NCBI GenBank assembly: GCA_902575065.1
Contig: CACGPU010000011.1
Coordinates: 1 to 39,068 of the forward strand
DNA from: an uncultured Alphaproteobacteria bacterium
GTDB lineage: Bacteria > Pseudomonadota > Alphaproteobacteria > HIMB59
Reading direction: 5' to 3'
Length of the DNA: 39,068 nt
Below the pieces are notes generated by a model. It made no database searches. It was not told where the DNA came from and saw only the letters and a list, made by a program, of their open reading frames with translations. Positions 12,429 to 22,345 of the stretch are shown one piece after another (the first letter of the stretch is position 1; each line of letters begins with the position of its first letter). The translations under genes were made by a program, and so were the position numbers.

Positions 12429-13421
12429 ATGAAAGTTGACTTAGACAAATGGCATCATTGTGACGTTGATAAAGAAGAATTTGTAAAGCTTCTTAAGAAG
12501 TCGGATTATCAAGGTTTTAAACACATGTTTATTTTCTTTGGATCTTTAATTGTATTCGGTGTTTTAGCTTATATGACATGGGGGACTTGGTGGTCTTTAT
12601 TATTTTTTTTAATTTATGGAAATATATGGAATTGTGCAGATCCTATTTGGCACGAAACAGGACATAAAACAGCTTTTAAAACGAACTATTGGAATAACTT
12701 TTTTTATCAAATTGGAAGTTATATGAATGGATTTGAACCAGTAAGATGGAGATGGTCACATTTTCGTCATCATGGTTATACTTACTTTGATGATCCACTT
12801 GATTTTGAAATAGCAATTAGAAGACCAACTGATGTTTTTTACTTTTTCAGTTTATTCGTACCTTTCTTTGACATATTTAATTTTAAAAAAACAACTCAAT
12901 ACGAGACTATTCTTCATGCTCTAGGCAAAAAAACAGAAGTAATGAAACAAGTAATCCCTGAAAGAGAACATCAAAAATGCATAAACTCCTCAAGATTACA
13001 TGTTGGTATTTGGATCTTATTAATTTTAATGTCAATTGCTTTTCAGTCTTGGTTGCCGGTTTTATATTTTTTACTTCCAAACTTTTATGGGATAACACTC
13101 AAAAGACTTTTTGGATTAACTCAACATACTGGGCTTAAAGATAATATCAAAGATCATAGATATAGTACTAGGACAATGCATTTAAACCCGATCTTCAGTT
13201 TTTTATATTGGCAGATGGAATATCATATTGAACATCATATGTTCCCTACTGTACCATCGCATAATTTGCCTAAACTGCACCAATTAGTTAAAGATCAGAT
13301 GCCTCCTGCAAAAAAAGGTTTATGGGGAGCATACTCTGAAATCATCCCTACTATTTTAAAACAAGCAAAAAACCCTTCATATGAATTACAAGTAGCCGTT
13401 CCATCTAATAACAATGGCTAA
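12429..13421 (+). CDS. Fatty acid desaturase-family membrane di-iron oxygenase
   Basis: This integral membrane di-iron enzyme of 330 residues has the three histidine boxes H75-ETG-H79, H111-FR-HH115 and H266-IE-HH270, plus extra His in TQHTG and KDHRY that often complete the site. Hydrophobic helices lie around 33-65 and 193-222. Family members desaturate or hydroxylate acyl chains, sphingoid bases, carotenoids or alkanes. The substrate cannot be read from the sequence. It overlaps the PanB-like gene by 8 bp, so a joint pathway is likely, and the neighbouring operon handles trimethylammonium compounds. No fused rubredoxin or cytochrome b5 electron donor is present. Confidence 0.85.
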   Translation: MKVDLDKWHHCDVDKEEFVKLLKKSDYQGFKHMFIFFGSLIVFGVLAYMTWGTWWSLLFFLIYGNIWNCADPIWHETGHKTAFKTNYWNNFFYQIGSYMNGFEPVRWRWSHFRHHGYTYFDDPLDFEIAIRRPTDVFYFFSLFVPFFDIFNFKKTTQYETILHALGKKTEVMKQVIPEREHQKCINSSRLHVGIWILLILMSIAFQSWLPVLYFLLPNFYGITLKRLFGLTQHTGLKDNIKDHRYSTRTMHLNPIFSFLYWQMEYHIEHHMFPTVPSHNLPKLHQLVKDQMPPAKKGLWGAYSEIIPTILKQAKNPSYELQVAVPSNNNG

Positions 13422-14199
13422 AAGAACTACCGTTTTTGATTTATGGAGTCAAAAAGGGAAAAAGAAGTGGCCTCAAACTCATATAGATACAGCAAAAGAG
13501 GCAGAAGCTGCCTATAAAGCAGGAATTGAAATAATTTCCTGTGAACCCGATCATCATTTCAAGGATGTAAGAAATGTTGCTCCAACAGCATTTTTATCTG
13601 TTGGTCTTAAACATGGGTTGGTGAGTTCTCCTCAAGAGGCAATAAAAAAAGGTTTTGAAATAATGGAAATGGGAGCAGATGCTATTTATTGTTCACACTC
13701 AATTAACTTTATTGAAGCTATGGCAAAAGAGGGAATACCTGTAACTGCACACGTTGGATTAGTCCCAAATATTGCAACATGGACTAATTACAGAGCTGTA
13801 GGAAAAACATCAAACGAAGCTTTTAAAGTATATCAAAAAGTAAAAGATCTCGAAAATGCTGGAGCGGCTTGCGTAGAAGTCGAGGTGGTACCAGTTGAGC
13901 TTGCAGAATTTATAACAAAGAATACTAAAATGATAACTATGGGTATGGGTTGTGGTGATGTGTGTGATACACAATATTTATTTTGTAATGATATACTTGG
14001 TACAAACGTTGGTCATTATCCTCGACATGCAAAAAAATATGTAGATTTAGAAATTAAAGAAAGAGAGTTACAAGAATTAAGAATAAAAGGTTTTAAGATG
14101 TTTGTTGATGAATTTAATAGTGGTGTATACCCTGAAGATAAACATCTTATTAAAATGGAAGAAAAAGAGCTTAATGATTTTCTAGATAAAGTTAAATAG
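13414..14199 (+). CDS. PanB-like protein (ketopantoate hydroxymethyltransferase superfamily)
   Basis: This 261-residue protein belongs to the PEP mutase/isocitrate lyase-like barrel superfamily. The second half closely follows PanB: GADAIYCSHS, GIPVTAHVGLVPN, YRAVGKT, then VEVEVVPVELAEFIT with the conserved catalytic-type Glu, and MGMGCGDVCDTQYLFCNDILG. The first half is different: the PanB metal-binding segment with VGDSLG has no counterpart, and IISCEPDHHF stands in that region. It is therefore probably not the pantothenate enzyme but a relative acting on another oxo acid. It overlaps the desaturase upstream and the convergent glutamine-synthetase homologue downstream, each by 8 bp. Confidence 0.75.
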   Translation: MAKRTTVFDLWSQKGKKKWPQTHIDTAKEAEAAYKAGIEIISCEPDHHFKDVRNVAPTAFLSVGLKHGLVSSPQEAIKKGFEIMEMGADAIYCSHSINFIEAMAKEGIPVTAHVGLVPNIATWTNYRAVGKTSNEAFKVYQKVKDLENAGAACVEVEVVPVELAEFITKNTKMITMGMGCGDVCDTQYLFCNDILGTNVGHYPRHAKKYVDLEIKERELQELRIKGFKMFVDEFNSGVYPEDKHLIKMEEKELNDFLDKVK

Positions 14200-15616: not shown

Positions 15617-16315
15617 ATGTCTAAACTACAGTTAATCTATTTCAATCTTAGAGCTTTGTGTGAGGCTCCAAGGATGATGCTACATACTGCGGGTATCGAA
15701 TATTCATATGAAATGGCATGGGATTATTTTAAAAAACCATGGGGTGATGTCAAAAAAGAGGTGATTTTTCATAAATTACCTTTACTTGTTATAGATGAGA
15801 AAATTAAAATATGGCAAAGCAATACTATCTCAAGATATATAGCTAAACTTACAAACAATATCCCCAATAATGAGGAAATGGTAGCATATGCTGACTCTAT
15901 ATTTGAGTCTGCCCATGATTTATTTTTTCCTTTAAATCCAACAATAAATGTTTGGGTTGGTGAAATGCACTTAAAGAATAAAAAAAATCTTCTAGATGAA
16001 ATTTTACCCAAAGCTTTTACAAATTTTGAAAAGTTATTAAGTAAATATGAAGGTAATTTTTTTTTAGGAGAAAGAGCATTTTATTGTGACTTTAATGTTT
16101 ATCATCATGTTTCACTAGCATTGCTATTAGATGATAAAATTTTAGATAACTTTCCAAAGTTAAAAAAATTTATGAGCGATTTTGAAAAGATTCAAGGTAT
16201 TTTAGATTATCTGGAGTCAAGACCCAAACTTATTGGAATTGGTACTTGGCCAAAAGTAGTAATTGATGGTATAGAATACACATCTGGCACTAATCCCGAT
16301 TACAAATATCAATAA
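15617..16315 (+). CDS. Glutathione S-transferase family protein
   Basis: This soluble GST-fold protein has 232 residues. The thioredoxin-like N-domain opens with LQLIYFNLRALCEAPRMML, whose Tyr8 matches the catalytic Tyr of Sigma-type GSTs. The cis-Pro segment FHKLPLLVIDEKIKIWQSN carries the glutathione gamma-glutamyl-binding S-N pair. An all-helical C-domain follows (about 90-215), with the N-capping box-like motif ERAFYCDFNVYHH. Targets of this family are diverse (peroxides, electrophiles, isomerisations), so no substrate is assigned. It is divergent from the PuuA-like gene by 39 bp. Its 3' end contains the likely promoter of tRNA-Cys. Confidence 0.82.
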   Translation: MSKLQLIYFNLRALCEAPRMMLHTAGIEYSYEMAWDYFKKPWGDVKKEVIFHKLPLLVIDEKIKIWQSNTISRYIAKLTNNIPNNEEMVAYADSIFESAHDLFFPLNPTINVWVGEMHLKNKKNLLDEILPKAFTNFEKLLSKYEGNFFLGERAFYCDFNVYHHVSLALLLDDKILDNFPKLKKFMSDFEKIQGILDYLESRPKLIGIGTWPKVVIDGIEYTSGTNPDYKYQ

Positions 16316-16410: not shown

Positions 16411-17169
16411 CTACTTCATTTCATCAATTATTTTTTTTAAAGTTCTTGATGTGAGATCTAGAATTCTTTTTCCTTTATCTGCAGAGGATTTTGTAGGATT
16501 GCCAATTATACCTGTCTTGGACAAATCTTTTGTATTCCAAGCTCTTTTAATTGTTCTTTCATAAGAAATTATTTTTTTAGATTTAAAGTCAGATGAGAGT
16601 TTGTTTCTTTTAATTTTATTTAATTTTATCAATTCTGGATAAAGGTGAAGCATTATTGATGTTTCAAATTCACCTCCATGATATCCATATAGTAATTCCT
16701 TTTTTGGAATAATTTTTTCAAAACCTTTAAATAAAAAATAATGTGCCTTAACAATATCGACAGCTTTATATCTACTTTTAATTTCTTTAGCAGCTATATC
16801 TAAGTGACTAATTTGTCCGCCATGACTATTTAAAAAGATAAATTTTTTATATCTACGAATACATAACTCACCAACTATGCTGATAATATAATCAATATAA
16901 TTTGTAGAGTTCGAAGATAGAGTGCCCTCAAAGCTATTATGCTCACTCGCTGAACCTATTGAGATATTTGGTAGAATTAAATATTTATTAAGTTTGGGAT
17001 ATTTCATAATAAAAGTATTTAAAATTCCATCTAATATCAATTTATCAGTACCTGATGGAAGGTGTTCTCCATGTTGTTCTACAGATGAAAATGGGAGAAT
17101 AAGTATTTTATTTTTACCTAATTTATTAATATCTGCTGATGTTAAATCGGACCAAAACTTTGATAGCAT
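16411..17169 (-). CDS. Creatininase-family amidohydrolase (ArfB/MftE-like)
   Basis: This 252-residue metal-dependent hydrolase has the family ligands: LPFSSVEQHGEHLPSGTD (Glu, His and Asp, about 26-43), FLNSHGGQ near 112 and GYHGGEFETS near 160. The family includes creatininase, mycofactocin MftE and archaeal ArfB, which removes formate from the formylaminopyrimidine made from GTP. Lying in the same gene group as a GTP cyclohydrolase II, a RibD-type reductase and a PTPS homologue, an ArfB-like deformylation or amide hydrolysis of a GTP-derived pyrimidine is the best guess. The start lies 29 bp from the divergent dehydrogenase start. The stop abuts tRNA-Cys. Confidence 0.82.
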   Translation of the reverse strand: MLSKFWSDLTSADINKLGKNKILILPFSSVEQHGEHLPSGTDKLILDGILNTFIMKYPKLNKYLILPNISIGSASEHNSFEGTLSSNSTNYIDYIISIVGELCIRRYKKFIFLNSHGGQISHLDIAAKEIKSRYKAVDIVKAHYFLFKGFEKIIPKKELLYGYHGGEFETSIMLHLYPELIKLNKIKRNKLSSDFKSKKIISYERTIKRAWNTKDLSKTGIIGNPTKSSADKGKRILDLTSRTLKKIIDEMK

Positions 17170-17198
17170 AAGTGATATTTAACATTTATATAATTATT

Positions 17199-18161
17199 AT
17201 GGAAACTTATTCTCTATGGCTTAAGAATGAAAATAAAGCAATTATTAAGAAAAAAATACTAAGCTATAAAAAAAATTCTAAAACTGTCCTTGTAAAAACT
17301 CTTTATTCAGGAATTAGTAAAGGTACTGAGAGATTAGTAGCATCTGGTAGTATTAGCAAAGATCAATTCGATATAATGAAATCTCCTTTTCAAGAAGGAT
17401 CTTTTTCTTTTCCAATTAAATACGGTTACATTAATGTTGGTAAAATAGTTGAAGGACCAAAAAAATATTTAAATAAAAATACATTCTGCCTTTACCCTCA
17501 TCAGTCACTATTTAAGATTGATATAAATAATGTAAATATTTTGAAAGGTAATGGTGATATTCGAAAATATTTACTAACAGCAAATATGGAAACAGCTATT
17601 AATATCTTTTGGGATACTCAAGCAAAATTAAATAACAAAATATTGATAGTAGGGATGGGCTCTGTTGGTATTTTAACTGCCTACTATTATAAATTACTAA
17701 AATTTAAAAATGTCTTTATTACTGACATAAATATTAAAAAGAAGAAATTTGCTAATATTTTAGGACTAAAATTTATTAATTTTAAAAAAATTAAAGACTT
17801 AGATGTTATAATTAATACAACTTCTAATTACGATGTACTAAACCTATCACTAAAAAAGTTAAATTTAGAGGGAAAATTTATTGAGGCTAGTTGGTATGGA
17901 AATAGAAAAGGTCATGTAAATTTAGGAGGTAATTTTCACTCAAAGAGATTAAAAATTATTGGTTCTCAAGTTTCAAATATTCCAAAGTATTTATCAAAAA
18001 AATATGATTATAAAAAGAGACTGAATTTAGCAATTAATGCTTTATCTAATAACCAACTTCTTAAATTAATAAACACTGAAAGTAACTTTAAGGATCTAGA
18101 GAAAGATTATATTTCAATATTAAATAATCCAGAAAGCATAATGCATGCTATAAAGTATTAA
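17199..18161 (+). CDS. MDR-family dehydrogenase lacking the usual zinc ligands (BchC-like)
   Basis: This 320-residue medium-chain dehydrogenase/reductase has the N-terminal GroES-like fold marked by LYSGISKGTERLVASG, a signature shared with BchC-type dehydrogenases where canonical alcohol dehydrogenases have a zinc Cys. The nucleotide-binding domain starts at ILIVGMGSVGILTAYYY. Cys/His zinc ligands of classical alcohol dehydrogenases are not visible. A GTG at 17172 is in frame, but the ATG at 17199 gives the natural N-terminus METYSLW. Its stop is 1 nt before the PTPS-like gene. It probably oxidises or reduces a hydroxyl or carbonyl on the cluster's intermediate; the substrate is unknown. Confidence 0.75.
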   Translation: METYSLWLKNENKAIIKKKILSYKKNSKTVLVKTLYSGISKGTERLVASGSISKDQFDIMKSPFQEGSFSFPIKYGYINVGKIVEGPKKYLNKNTFCLYPHQSLFKIDINNVNILKGNGDIRKYLLTANMETAINIFWDTQAKLNNKILIVGMGSVGILTAYYYKLLKFKNVFITDINIKKKKFANILGLKFINFKKIKDLDVIINTTSNYDVLNLSLKKLNLEGKFIEASWYGNRKGHVNLGGNFHSKRLKIIGSQVSNIPKYLSKKYDYKKRLNLAINALSNNQLLKLINTESNFKDLEKDYISILNNPESIMHAIKY

Positions 18162-18162
18162 A

Positions 18163-18570
18163 ATGTATTCAATTACTGTTCGAAATAATATTTTAATTGC
18201 ACATTCTCTCCCGGGTGAGGTTTTTGGACCAGCACAGAATATGCATGGAGCGACCTACATAGTTGATGCTGAGTTTTATGCAAAAGAGATTAACAAATAT
18301 AACATTATTATGGATCTCGGGGTTGTAACAGAAATTCTCTCTGACGTATTAAAATTTTATAGTTATAAAAATTTAGACGAAGTTGAAGAATTTAAAAATA
18401 TAATTACCTCTACGGAATTTCTTGCAAAAGATATTTTTGATAGAATATGCGCTAAATTACAAAAAGATTACATAGAAGATTTTAACAAGTTGCATAAAAT
18501 TAAAATTATTTTAACTGAGTCAAATGTAGCTTGGGCTTCTTATGAACAAGAGATCAATAATACACAATAA
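18163..18570 (+). CDS. 6-pyruvoyltetrahydropterin synthase/QueD-family protein with altered active site
   Basis: This 135-residue T-fold protein is related to PTPS and QueD, which act on dihydroneopterin triphosphate. The alignable motif is LIAHSLPGEVFGPAQNMHGATY (positions 11-32). H14 and H28 match two zinc ligands, but the third ligand of the normal H-G-H is Ala (A30), and the catalytic Cys four residues before H28 is Ala (A24). The C-terminal Glu in TESNVAWASYE remains. Standard carboxytetrahydropterin or pyruvoyl synthase activity is therefore doubtful. It sits 1 nt after the dehydrogenase and overlaps the glycosyltransferase start by 29 bp. Confidence 0.8.
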   Translation: MYSITVRNNILIAHSLPGEVFGPAQNMHGATYIVDAEFYAKEINKYNIIMDLGVVTEILSDVLKFYSYKNLDEVEEFKNIITSTEFLAKDIFDRICAKLQKDYIEDFNKLHKIKIILTESNVAWASYEQEINNTQ

Positions 18571-19585
18571 ATCTTATTATTTTATTTATCCGGGTGATAT
18601 TAATACAAAAACAGGCGGTTACATTTATGAAAAAAATATATTAAGAAGAGCAAAAAAAATTAAATTTAATTTAAATGCTATCAAACTAGCTAACAGCTTT
18701 CCCTTTCCTAAAGAAAATGACTTAAAAAAACTAAAAAAAACTTTAGAAAAATTACCTGATAATGCAGTACTAATTATTGATGGGTTAGTTTTTGAGTGTA
18801 TTGATAGTATAATAAACTGTTTAGATAGATTTGTAGTAATAGCTCTTATACACCACCCTCTTTATCTAGAATTTAATGGCAATCAAAGTCAATTTTTTCT
18901 TAAGAACGCTAAAAAGTTATATAAGAAAACGAAAAAAATAATTGTCACTTCAAATGATACAAAACAACTAATTTTTGAAAAATTTAAAATTAATAAGCAT
19001 AAAATTCAAGTTGTAGAGCCTGGAATAAAAAAATTAAGAAAATATAAATATAAAAGAGATAAAAATATAAATTTACTATCTGTAGGAAGTATTATTGAGA
19101 GAAAAAATTATCATTATCTGTTAAACGAATTAAGATACATGGATAAAATAAAATTAAATATTGTAGGAGATATAACTAGAGAGAATAAGTACTATAATAG
19201 ATTACTAAAAATTATAAGTGATTATAGATTAAGTAAAAAAGTTAAGTTTCATAGTAATGTATCGACTAATTTATTATCAAAACTATATTCTAAGTGTGAC
19301 TTCTATGTCTCAGTAAGTAAATATGAAGGTTTTGGTATGTCACTTGCTAATGCGCTTCAGCTCAAAAAAATGATTATTACATATAAAACTAAAACAATTA
19401 TGAGTACTCTAAAAAAGGATGGAATTATCTACTTAAATAATTTCAAAGAAAAAAGTTTATCAAAATTAATTACTAAAAATGCATTTAATTCAGATTTATC
19501 AAAAAAATTATCACAAAATAAGAGAAAATTTTTAACACCAATACAATCTGGGGATCTTTTTATCAAGGTAATAAAAAATGCATAA
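18542..19585 (+). CDS. GT4-type glycosyltransferase
   Basis: This 347-residue glycosyltransferase has a GT-B layout. The N-terminal domain includes GDINTKTGGYIYEKNI (acceptor-side glycine loop) and ALIHHPLYLE. The C-terminal domain starts about residue 175 with LLSVGSIIERKNYHYLL, the usual GT4 phosphate-binding region, and has SKYEGFGMSLANAL. The donor-binding E-x7-E is E262 with Asn at position 270, so the second Glu is replaced. The ATG at 18542 lies inside the PTPS-like gene and no later in-frame start keeps the glycine loop. It overlaps the methyltransferase by 8 bp. Its acceptor is presumably the small molecule made by this cluster rather than lipid or cell wall. Confidence 0.8.
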   Translation: MNKRSIIHNKSYYFIYPGDINTKTGGYIYEKNILRRAKKIKFNLNAIKLANSFPFPKENDLKKLKKTLEKLPDNAVLIIDGLVFECIDSIINCLDRFVVIALIHHPLYLEFNGNQSQFFLKNAKKLYKKTKKIIVTSNDTKQLIFEKFKINKHKIQVVEPGIKKLRKYKYKRDKNINLLSVGSIIERKNYHYLLNELRYMDKIKLNIVGDITRENKYYNRLLKIISDYRLSKKVKFHSNVSTNLLSKLYSKCDFYVSVSKYEGFGMSLANALQLKKMIITYKTKTIMSTLKKDGIIYLNNFKEKSLSKLITKNAFNSDLSKKLSQNKRKFLTPIQSGDLFIKVIKNA

Positions 19586-20366
19586 ATTTAATAATGATTG
19601 GCTATTTCTACGAGAGAAAATTGATAAAGTTTCAAGAAATAGAAAAATTATAGAAAAAATAAATAAATATTTTCAAGACTACAAAATATTGTCTATCGCT
19701 GATTTAGGTTGTGGAACAGGTTCCAACTATAGATATATGTACCCTAAACTTAAAAAAAGGCAATCATGGGATATGATAGACATATCATTTGAGTCAATTA
19801 AAGAATTTAAGAAAATAACAAATAATAAGAATAAAATTATAAATATAAATTATAAAAAATTTGATTTAATCAAGAATATTAAAAATTTTGAGTTCAAAAA
19901 ATACGATATTATTACAGGATCTGCGTATTTAGATATAATGCCAAAAAATTGGTATTTAGAATTTAAAAAACAAAATTTAAATACAAAAGTTATATATTTT
20001 TCAATTAATTATGATGGATTTTTTAAATTTTTCCCAAAACATAAAAATGACCAATACGTTTTAAGTTTATTTAATAAAGACCAGGAGTCAGATAAAGGTA
20101 TTGGACAAAAAGCAGTTGGTAGAAACTGTAGTCAAATAATTAATAAAATGTTTACTAAGTCACACAAAACATTTGTTTTTGACTCGAGTTGGGATGTATC
20201 AAAGAATAAAAAATTTCAAAATATATTTTTAGATTTTTGTGAAAATATACTTGAAAAAAATAAGATATCATTAGATAGATGGTTAGATTTTAGAAGGGAG
20301 AATATTAAAAAAAATAAATCAAAATTATTTTTAAGAAATAAAGATTTTTTAGCTTTAAAACTCTAA
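19578..20366 (+). CDS. SAM-dependent methyltransferase
   Basis: This 262-residue class I methyltransferase has motif I SIADLGCGTGSN (about 39-50), followed by WDMIDISFESIKEF, where the acidic residue should bind the SAM ribose. TGSAYLDIMPKNWY may be the motif IV region. The C-terminal half is lysine- and asparagine-rich and not assignable. The target atom cannot be predicted. It overlaps the glycosyltransferase by 8 bp and the convergent reductase gene by 12 bp. It is among the most A+T-rich genes in the window, with runs of AAA and AAT codons. Confidence 0.8.
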   Translation: MHKFNNDWLFLREKIDKVSRNRKIIEKINKYFQDYKILSIADLGCGTGSNYRYMYPKLKKRQSWDMIDISFESIKEFKKITNNKNKIININYKKFDLIKNIKNFEFKKYDIITGSAYLDIMPKNWYLEFKKQNLNTKVIYFSINYDGFFKFFPKHKNDQYVLSLFNKDQESDKGIGQKAVGRNCSQIINKMFTKSHKTFVFDSSWDVSKNKKFQNIFLDFCENILEKNKISLDRWLDFRRENIKKNKSKLFLRNKDFLALKL

Positions 20367-21185
20367 ACTTACTATCATTTCATCGCCAAATTTATAAATT
20401 TTATTTTTTGTTCTAATAACTTTTTTTAAATTTGTTATAGGTTTTATATTTATAGAATTAATACCAGAACCAATAATTGTAGGTGCTATCATAAATTGCA
20501 TAATATCTAATAATTTATTCTCAAGAAATTTAGATATAGTTTTAGAACCACCTTCTACTAATACGAACTTAAAACCTAAATTATTTATATGTTTGTATAT
20601 AAGATTTGTGAAATTTCTTTCAGGTAATTTATAAATTTGTGTATTATCTAAATTCTTTTTAATATTAGAGTGTGTAAATATGATATTTGAAAAACCATCT
20701 TTAAATATTTGATAGTTATTTGTTAATTTTAGAGATGGATCTATAATTATCCTCTGAGGATTTGAGCCCTTAATTGCTCTTGTAGTGAGCAAGGGATTAT
20801 CTTTTTTTATTGTATTTACACCAACTATGACTGCATCACACACTGAACGAAGACTATGAAGGTATGAAATACTATTTTTATCATTAATGTAATGAGAATT
20901 GCCGTTTAAAAGTGCAATTTTACCGTCTAAACTTTGCCCAATTTGACCGATATAGAATTTTTTTTTTATCATCAATATTGGTAACAAAATTTGTGCTATT
21001 TCATTTATTTTTTTTTCAATCTTACAATTAAAATTAACGCCATTTTTATCAATTAAAATATGATTGGTTTTAGAATGTTGACTAAGTACAAACGATTTGT
21101 TAATTAAATCAATTCTTAAGATATTTGATTTTTTTTGTTTTTTTACAAATTCAAATAGTGAAGAAATATTATGCTTTGTTATCAT
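20355..21185 (-). CDS. RibD C-terminal domain (pyrimidine reductase) protein, no deaminase domain
   Basis: This 276-residue protein belongs to the RibD C-terminal/dihydrofolate-reductase-like fold. Characteristic segments are GQIGQSLDGKIALLNGNSHY (about 98-117), SLRSVCDAVIVGVNTIKKDNP, LLTTR, and VEGGSKTISKFLENKLLD with APTIIGSG. RibD reductases and archaeal ArfC reduce the ribosyl side chain of the diaminopyrimidine with NADPH. The N-terminal 95 residues are not the zinc deaminase of bifunctional RibD: no HAE or PCxxxxC motif is present. It is divergent from the GTP cyclohydrolase gene by 41 bp, suggesting a shared control region. Confidence 0.85.
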   Translation of the reverse strand: MITKHNISSLFEFVKKQKKSNILRIDLINKSFVLSQHSKTNHILIDKNGVNFNCKIEKKINEIAQILLPILMIKKKFYIGQIGQSLDGKIALLNGNSHYINDKNSISYLHSLRSVCDAVIVGVNTIKKDNPLLTTRAIKGSNPQRIIIDPSLKLTNNYQIFKDGFSNIIFTHSNIKKNLDNTQIYKLPERNFTNLIYKHINNLGFKFVLVEGGSKTISKFLENKLLDIMQFMIAPTIIGSGINSINIKPITNLKKVIRTKNKIYKFGDEMIVSLEF

Positions 21186-21226
21186 TTTTCATCTGTATCA
21201 AGTACTATTGAGTATATATATAGTCT

Positions 21227-22345
21227 ATGAGTTTAAAATCAAATTTTGGCACATTTATTGACAGAGCTATCAATGAGCTTAGAACCGGAAGACCAATAGT
21301 TATCAAAGAAAATAAAAATTATTGGATGTTCTTTAATATTGAACATTCGGACAATAAAATTTTAAATCAATTCAATCAATACCTACAAAAAGACAAATAT
21401 CTTTTAATTACAAAACAAAAAGCAAAATCAATATTTGAAAATAAAGTATCAACAAATATTTATTTAAAAATAAATGAAAAAATATCAAACAAATCTTTAT
21501 TAAGTTTATTCATTAACCCTTTATCTGATCAAAATAAAATATTATTTAAAGATGAGCCTTATATCAAAAGTAAAGACTTCCATAATGTCTGTTTAGATAT
21601 AGCCAAAAATGCGAAGGTAATACCATCGCTTGTATTTAAAAAAATTAATCCTAAATATTATAAAAATATTGATAATTTAATATTACAACTTGGTCTATTA
21701 AGATTTAACCATAAAGAGTTAAAAAATCAGAATAAATTTATAACTAATAGTATCAGATTAGTTTCAAGTGCAAATGTGCCCTTACCAAATGTTGCGTCTA
21801 CTACTTTTAATATTTTTAAGTCATATATTGGTGCTAGAAGACATATCGCGATCATAATTAAACCAAAAAATTTAAAACAACCAACAAACCTTAGAATTCA
21901 CTCTGCTTGTTTTACTGGGGATATATTTCACTCTAGAAAATGCGATTGCGGAGAACAATTAAATAACTCTTTAAACTATATGGTTAAAAATAAAGGAGGT
22001 ATTATCCTTTATTTAGATCAAGAAGGGAGAGGTATAGGACTAGCCAATAAAATGAGGGCATATTCTCTTCAGTCAAAAGGCTTGGATACTATTGATGCTG
22101 ATCACAACATAGGTTTTTTAGATGATGAAAGAGATTTTAATATTGCCGCTAAGATACTTAAGTTATTAAAAGTAAATAAAGTCAATATTATCACAAATAA
22201 TTTTACAAAAGTTTCTTCTCTTAAAAAAGCTGGTATTAAAATTGCCAAGCAAATAAATACAAAACCTACAATTAATAAATTTAATAAGAATTATTTTAAA
22301 ACAAGAGTAAAAAAAACAGGTTACGGTTTTAAAAATTTAGACTAA
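21227..22345 (+). CDS. ribA: GTP cyclohydrolase II with a non-catalytic N-terminal domain
   Basis: This 372-residue protein has a complete C-terminal GTP cyclohydrolase II domain (about 175-372). The zinc Cys are C228, C239 and C241 in HSACFTGDIFHSRKCDCGE. LDQEGRGIGLANKMRAYSLQ supplies Y279, and R302 lies in DDERDF with the same 23-residue spacing as E. coli Tyr105 and Arg128. The domain opens GTP, releasing formate and pyrophosphate. The first 170 residues begin like RibBA proteins (IDRAINELRTGRPIVI), but the DHBP-synthase motifs (DDEDRENEG and the downstream R-x-GHTE) are missing, so this half is probably structural or regulatory. Together with the lone RibD reductase it suggests a pathway beside riboflavin. 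Confidence 0.88.
   Translation: MSLKSNFGTFIDRAINELRTGRPIVIKENKNYWMFFNIEHSDNKILNQFNQYLQKDKYLLITKQKAKSIFENKVSTNIYLKINEKISNKSLLSLFINPLSDQNKILFKDEPYIKSKDFHNVCLDIAKNAKVIPSLVFKKINPKYYKNIDNLILQLGLLRFNHKELKNQNKFITNSIRLVSSANVPLPNVASTTFNIFKSYIGARRHIAIIIKPKNLKQPTNLRIHSACFTGDIFHSRKCDCGEQLNNSLNYMVKNKGGIILYLDQEGRGIGLANKMRAYSLQSKGLDTIDADHNIGFLDDERDFNIAAKILKLLKVNKVNIITNNFTKVSSLKKAGIKIAKQINTKPTINKFNKNYFKTRVKKTGYGFKNLD

Follow-up and report, generated by a model that had tools for sequence, protein, structure and literature searches.

According to PMC13259868, GTP cyclohydrolase I (GCHI) is the entry point to most biological pterins, and the pterin glycosides of cyanobacteria (biopterin glucoside and cyanopterin) are linked to light protection and phototaxis. 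Here we describe a block of seven genes at positions 16411–22345 of a 39,068-nt contig of an uncultured alphaproteobacterium (the window; C11 of the source genome) whose product would, like those compounds, be bacterial and presumably glycosylated. Set against what that text says of most pterins, the block carries GTP cyclohydrolase II (GCHII) rather than GCHI, and many of its other hosts have genes for lipid attachment beside it. The source genome comprises 1.25 Mb and is 85% complete.

16411..17169, minus strand: creatininase-family amidohydrolase (CRE), candidate formamidopyrimidine deformylase; Pfam Creatininase, 179 bits
17199..18161, plus strand: zinc-less BchC-like medium-chain dehydrogenase (MDR); no Pfam match, sub-cut-off NCBIfam BchC match
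18163..18570, plus strand: PTPS-like protein of the SCO6650/3d7j type; Pfam PTPS, 75 bits
18542..19585, plus strand: GT4 glycosyltransferase; Pfam Glycos_transf_1, 79 bits
19578..20366, plus strand: class I S-adenosylmethionine methyltransferase (MT); Pfam Methyltransf_25, 29 bits (cut-off 27)
20355..21185, minus strand: reductase-only RibD-type pyrimidine reductase (RibD_C); Pfam RibD_C, 100 bits
21227..22345, plus strand: GCHII; Pfam GTP_cyclohydro2, 162 bits

Parts of this block resemble described systems. In the early riboflavin and F420 route of archaea and fungi, GTP is opened by GCH III/ArfA, ArfB follows, and a reductase acts before the deaminase. The window cluster likewise combines GTP opening, a creatininase-family protein and a stand-alone reductase, and a related cluster on a Haloarcula plasmid has GCH IIa, but MDR, the PTPS-like protein, GT4 and MT stand in place of a deaminase or FO synthase. 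The SCO6655-type GCHII of Streptomyces coelicolor, in which a Tyr is changed to Met, reportedly releases the formamidopyrimidine; the GCHII of actinobacterial clusters share the loss of this Tyr and always have a creatininase in the locus, whereas the window GCHII retains it. The S. coelicolor PTPS homologue SCO6650, named 'uncharacterized', is the closest solved chain to the window PTPS-like protein and is said to be a zinc-free T-fold hexamer that lacks the catalytic triad and keeps the pterin-binding residues. The structure paper is not known to assign it to a pathway; the present comparison identifies its conserved partners across several phyla and haloarchaea, so that this crystallised protein gains a genomic context. 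The parts of the cluster belong to known families, one with a solved structure, and our literature searches, mainly of open texts and including the accessible parts of PMC13259868, PMC1971073 and PMC2853524, found no description of the cluster itself.

A conserved seven-gene cluster

All seven open reading frames (ORFs) are intact and lie where the original prediction, made by a model from the sequence, had placed them; their positions and Pfam/NCBIfam matches bear out the seven families it had named. MDR and PTPS are separated by 1 nt, PTPS and GT4 overlap by 29 nt and GT4 and MT by 8 nt; MT and RibD_C meet tail to tail with an overlap of 12 nt, and CRE and MDR are arranged head to head. The MDR ORF opens at a GTG (17172), but comparison with the homologues by eye favours an internal ATG (17199) as the start.

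With PTPS alone as the query, 32 of 240 genomes of the class matched, and neighbourhoods of up to 20 kb were inspected around 30 matches besides the window (G023, a weak match, was left out). We counted 28 of these as alphaproteobacterial loci of other orders, excluding G161, which belongs to the window's own order and enters the SAR11 count, and G106, a weak match that has no cluster; in these loci, 'near' means within about 10 kb. In a collection of species genomes, at least 593 stretches encode the PTPS family, and 80 loci were kept (16 SAR11-like and 64 others, with group labels of named loci taken from record titles). The name SAR11-like reflects Pelagibacterales/Pelagibacteraceae records, whose PTPS was 79% and 69% identical among the matches listed; the nearest named relatives in the same list were five 'uncultured Alphaproteobacteria' loci at 98–99%. 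Gene families near PTPS were distributed as follows.

28 alphaproteobacterial loci of other orders: MDR 27, GT4 26, MT 26, RibD_C 21, GCHII 8 (L062 doubtful), creatininase 4; CDP-alcohol phosphatidyltransferase 8, sulfatase-like 5, FkbM 6, cytochrome b561 6, flippase-like 0
18 SAR11-like loci (including the window and L039): creatininase 18, MDR 18, GT4 17, MT 15, RibD_C 15, GCHII 15
36 actinobacterial loci: MDR 34, GT4 33, MT 31, GCHII 29, creatininase 30, RibD_C 4; CDP-alcohol phosphatidyltransferase 33, flippase-like 31, sulfatase-like 6
12 named alphaproteobacterial loci: MDR 11, GT4 12, MT 12, RibD_C 7, GCHII 2, creatininase 0
10 gamma-, beta- and other proteobacterial loci: MDR 10, GT4 10, RibD_C 10, MT 7, GCHII 3, creatininase 2; CDP-alcohol phosphatidyltransferase 8, flippase-like 8
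4 Bacteroidota loci: MDR, GT4, MT, RibD_C and GCHII in 2 each
Gemmatimonadales and Aquiluna loci: MDR, GT4 and RibD_C in 2 of 2, MT in 1 of 2

Near PTPS, MDR was accompanied by one or more of RibD_C, GCHII and creatininase in 22/28 alphaproteobacterial, 18/18 SAR11-like and 51/64 other named loci; the gene-poor SAR11-like loci (L079, L083 and L090) end shortly past PTPS. Twenty control stretches from the same genomes contained no family at >100 bits, and weaker matches (E < 1e-5) were restricted to MDR in one, GT4 in two and FkbM in one. On the strength of these controls and the synteny, chance neighbours were rejected. Inter-gene distance matrices correlate (r = 0.74–0.97, a range confounded by shared taxonomy). 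Across Pseudomonadota, 57 of 398 genomes matched PTPS at E 1e-15, 27 of them (own genome included) at >180 bits; the remaining 30 scored 59–68 bits, probably represent other PTPS types and were not counted.

The arrangement extends to plasmids and to archaea. Among nine plasmid loci kept out of the group tallies (L033–L038 and L071–L073), six had MDR, PTPS, MT and GT4, and L072 had MDR, PTPS and GT4. In haloarchaea, where seven of ten records were inspected (two of them, L259 and L264, very similar), all seven plasmid loci had MDR before PTPS. The methyltransferase place after PTPS was likewise occupied in all seven, by an annotated methyltransferase in five and by a hypothetical gene in two, and five had GT4 in between. 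Four of the loci carried a CDP-alcohol phosphatidyltransferase, two a creatininase and one GCH IIa. The order MDR–PTPS–(GT4)–MT of the four-gene core is thus common to halophilic archaea and many bacteria. Of the seven families whose co-occurrence in related genomes the original prediction had proposed as a check, all keep their order in two SAR11 families. Partner genes accompany PTPS in most inspected loci, including those of the SAR11 type, whose cells are some of the most numerous in the ocean. A virus-borne cluster was also considered; a scan of viral contigs gave one pattern match and no relative.

Probable gain or loss as a unit

Within the order of the window, PTPS was found in 54 of 80 genomes, and at least four of those without it (G255, G257, G256 and G293) lose it at a contig end. 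Three genomes of the same genus (G280, G030 and G316) have no PTPS match, but their left and right flanks are syntenic with those of the window (about 60–89% identity) and enclose 0.85–2.1 kb, compared with 7.2 kb in the window; the gap in G030 holds an unrelated 323-aa ORF. In a further genome, G253, the two flank sides lie on different contigs. The sister family (f2) has the same seven-gene order at 48–68% identity between other flanks. Cluster-type GCHII was present in all 27 PTPS-bearing genomes of that family (165–169 bits), and among its 12 genomes without PTPS it was found only in G256 and G293, where the block runs off the contig start. Gain or loss of the block as a unit best explains these patterns. 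Considering the synteny in several phyla and the absence of the whole block from congeners, a dedicated pathway is well supported by these sequence comparisons. This part of the original prediction, a dedicated small molecule, thus gains support, while the pterin, glycosyl and methyl identity of the product is what we infer.

Sequence features of the encoded proteins

The window PTPS-like protein aligns with SCO6650 (PDB 3d7j) over residues 1–129 (E 6e-34) and fits SCO6650-type homologues in sequence similarity and residue pattern. H14, H28, D51, E85 and E119 are invariant in 38/38 aligned rows, E119 being what we take to be the C-terminal pterin-anchoring Glu that is also found in both Mesorhizobium QueD proteins aligned. 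The position of the catalytic Cys (CxxxHGH) is Ala in 37/38 rows, as is that of the third zinc-binding His, although H14 and H28 are kept; direct alignment with the two QueD proteins pairs HRCHRMHGH with GPAQNMHGA in the window. An HSH motif is kept in the five haloarchaeal rows aligned. Judged from these alignments, the window protein is missing residues needed for standard PTPS/QueD chemistry.

The window GCHII carries both the zinc Cys motif (C..GD.....C.C) and QEGRGIGL..Tyr, as expected of a GTP cyclohydrolase II, and its N-terminal ~170 aa have no Pfam match; since it keeps the Tyr, it should itself make the deformylated product. Alignment of 50 GCHII from PTPS loci showed that the Tyr is lost in 30/30 actinobacterial proteins (24 Met, 5 His and 1 Gln), all of which have a creatininase in the locus, and is kept in 19/20 others (L062 could not be aligned there), of which six have one. 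The enzyme that opens GTP differs between hosts: a Tyr-type GCHII, a Tyr-less GCHII with a creatininase, or an archaeal GCH IIa. CRE shares with its homologues the pattern EQHG..D, SHGG and E, which we presume to be metal ligands. The original prediction spoke of an 'ArfB-like deformylase'; the window creatininase gave no match to the NCBIfam ArfB model NF033501 at E 0.01; a Streptomyces fungicidicus homologue matched it weakly, below the cut-off (37 versus 180). The description of a reductase-only RibD proved apt: the window protein holds RibD_C only and scores 116 against the NCBIfam RibD model for deaminase plus reductase (cut-off 156).

The dehydrogenase scores 50.5 bits against NCBIfam BchC, far below the equivalog cut-off of 291, and its solved relatives, polyol dehydrogenases among them, match mostly the nucleotide-binding half. 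The label zinc-less fits, as the place that we take to hold the usual MDR zinc ligands (SGIS[RK]GTE) lacks Cys and His. The GT4 family profile has its nearest solved chains among the Tll1590, D-inositol 3-phosphate glycosyltransferase, Pim and TarM types, and the MT family profile gave weak generic matches only.

A candidate route to a decorated pterin

We propose that the block makes one GTP-derived small molecule by a GCHI-independent route to a glycosylated, methylated pterin, a reading that we are about equally inclined to accept and to doubt. If a reductase but no deaminase acts once GTP has been opened, the product would be 2,5-diamino-6-ribitylamino-pyrimidinone phosphate. In the proposed route, GCHII (elsewhere, Tyr-less GCHII or GCH IIa, with the creatininase as deformylase) would convert GTP to 2,5-diamino-6-ribosylaminopyrimidinone phosphate, which the RibD-type reductase would bring to this ribityl form with no deamination. 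The zinc-less MDR would then oxidise the ribityl C2', arriving at the same compound and net change as the Amadori step in GCHI. The PTPS-like protein, which lacks the usual zinc site, may hold the 2-amino-4-oxo-pyrimidine by way of E119 and promote ring closure, in which the 5-amino group attacks, to a dihydroneopterin-type pterin phosphate; GT4 and MT may then glycosylate and methylate this compound. If the ring-closure idea is true, this would be a second way of building pterins.

Several observations weigh against this proposal. C2' oxidation and ring closure are steps deduced by chemical reasoning. MDR is missing near PTPS in 5/64 named loci, and two Streptomyces plasmids (L034 and L073, 10001–10396) have PTPS without pathway genes. 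The genes of the feeding steps are sparse near the cluster, with GCHII and creatininase in few of the 28 alphaproteobacterial loci, RibD_C in just 4 of the 36 actinobacterial loci and GCH IIa in a single halophile locus, the Haloarcula plasmid, which lacks RibD_C; in many hosts these activities would therefore need another source (RibD_C has 13 matches in one cluster-bearing Streptomyces genome). The cases that link Tyr loss to the creatininase are confined to one phylum and so are not phylogenetically independent, and SAR11 GCHII has the normal Tyr yet adjoins a creatininase. The MDR tree did not resolve the source of the SAR11 cluster.

A dedicated cluster with a non-pterin product (a modified pyrimidine nucleoside, an azapteridine or a lumazine-like compound), in which the PTPS-like protein serves as a binding protein, is possible but on balance unlikely. 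Ala at the catalytic Cys and third zinc His positions fits such a role, and methyltransferase, GCHII and RibD also form the toxoflavin toolkit; however, E119 is invariant, and the nearest structure, SCO6650, reportedly keeps the pterin-binding residues.

In many hosts outside SAR11, the pterin route may continue at the membrane, where a nearby CDP-alcohol phosphatidyltransferase and a flippase-like protein would attach the product to lipid and export it; these genes point to a lipid-linked compound. The motif D..DG..AR...G...D...D is present in 17/17 rows of the cluster phosphatidyltransferase. A counterpart elsewhere in SAR11 genomes was sought and rejected, as the best matches in 80 genomes reached ≤40.3 bits and lay mostly in ORFs of 184–189 and 240–253 aa, read as PgsA/PssA (cluster copies score 137–284 bits, on a profile other than that of the SAR11 search). 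Because no SAR11 match resembles the cluster enzyme, lipid attachment is proposed for non-SAR11 hosts only, and the SAR11 product is probably soluble. It is a long shot that the wider idea holds, in which bacteria and archaea share a GCHI-independent pterin pathway where the reductase and the zinc-less MDR together stand in for the Amadori step and the PTPS-fold protein closes the ring, and in which the decorated pterin of many hosts is coupled to phospholipid by the phosphatidyltransferase and flipped as a new lipid class, with a soluble form in SAR11.

The sulfatase-like protein was considered as an LtaS/OpgB-type transferase and rejected: a lipoteichoic acid primase matched weakly (E 0.076) and none matched by profile. 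It was kept out of the model because the transferase reading rests on motifs seen by eye. In 14 loci (for example, L038 7079–8881) the cluster has an OpgH/MdoH-like glucosyltransferase in its vicinity, and in four an OpgG-like gene, a name given by eye, hinting at a link to periplasmic glucans.

Riboflavin and folate supply

The original prediction asked whether the genome has its own riboflavin genes, and the answer is divided. Contig C10 carries the operon nrdR-ribD-ribE-ribBA-ribH (identified with Pfam; the next ORF looks nusB-like by eye), with a complete deaminase–reductase RibD, riboflavin synthase, RibBA and lumazine synthase, so that the window RibD_C is not unique. GCHII is not duplicated intact: the GCHII half of RibBA (L069 6949–8022, G000:C10) scores 58.5 bits in Pfam but has none of the motifs C..GD, CDC and QEGR, so that the search of this 85%-complete genome turned up no intact GCHII besides that of the window. 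Given the loss of these zinc and QEGR motifs, riboflavin synthesis in this genome probably also draws on the cluster GCHII. It is nevertheless very improbable that GCHII and RibD are simply the genome's riboflavin genes and the other five chance neighbours. Such housekeeping would agree with the degenerate RibBA and with the presence, in five cluster-free congeners, of another GCHII (37–46% identical over about half of the window protein), but the complete RibD on C10, the same seven-gene order between different flanks in two SAR11 families, and like neighbours in other phyla argue against it, and the conservation data contradict its chance-neighbour part. In addition, 23 of the 27 PTPS-bearing f2 genomes have, in addition to the cluster GCHII, a RibA of about 198 aa that stands alone; many list RibBA as a third homologue, and G247 has both the cluster and a second GCHII (158 bits). 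The original prediction had held that a dedicated pathway would be unlikely if these were the only RibA/RibD copies or if the neighbours were not conserved; this does not apply, as the neighbours are conserved in relatives and the cluster GCHII of f2 is an extra homologue.

The start of folate and pterin synthesis in SAR11 looks like a gap, as GCHI (PF01227 and PF02649) was found in 0/80 genomes of the order and FolB in 16/21 relatives, yet that the cluster fills this gap by replacing GCHI for folate is scarcely credible even with Chlamydia reportedly using GCHII for folate, because the 26/80 genomes without a PTPS match (some owing to contig ends) equally lack GCHI and because glycosyl- and methyltransferases are superfluous for folate. 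In three genomes of the sister family (G161:C1, G248:C1 and G250:C3), about 9 kb separates FolB from the stand-alone RibA.

Neighbouring genes

One gene lies between the cluster and the conserved left flank:

15617..16315, plus strand: glutathione S-transferase-like (GST-like) gene

It is missing too at the empty sites of the congeners, where it is absent together with the block as one piece, and is probably outside the pathway. On the Streptomyces plasmids L034 and L073, PTPS has cupin, MEKHLA-domain, MBL-fold and BTAD-regulator genes as neighbours in each case, a possible separate use of the protein. Elsewhere in the window, a ketopantoate hydroxymethyltransferase-family gene (13414–14199) adjoins a glutamine-synthetase-family gene, and both flanks are kept in the cluster-free congeners.

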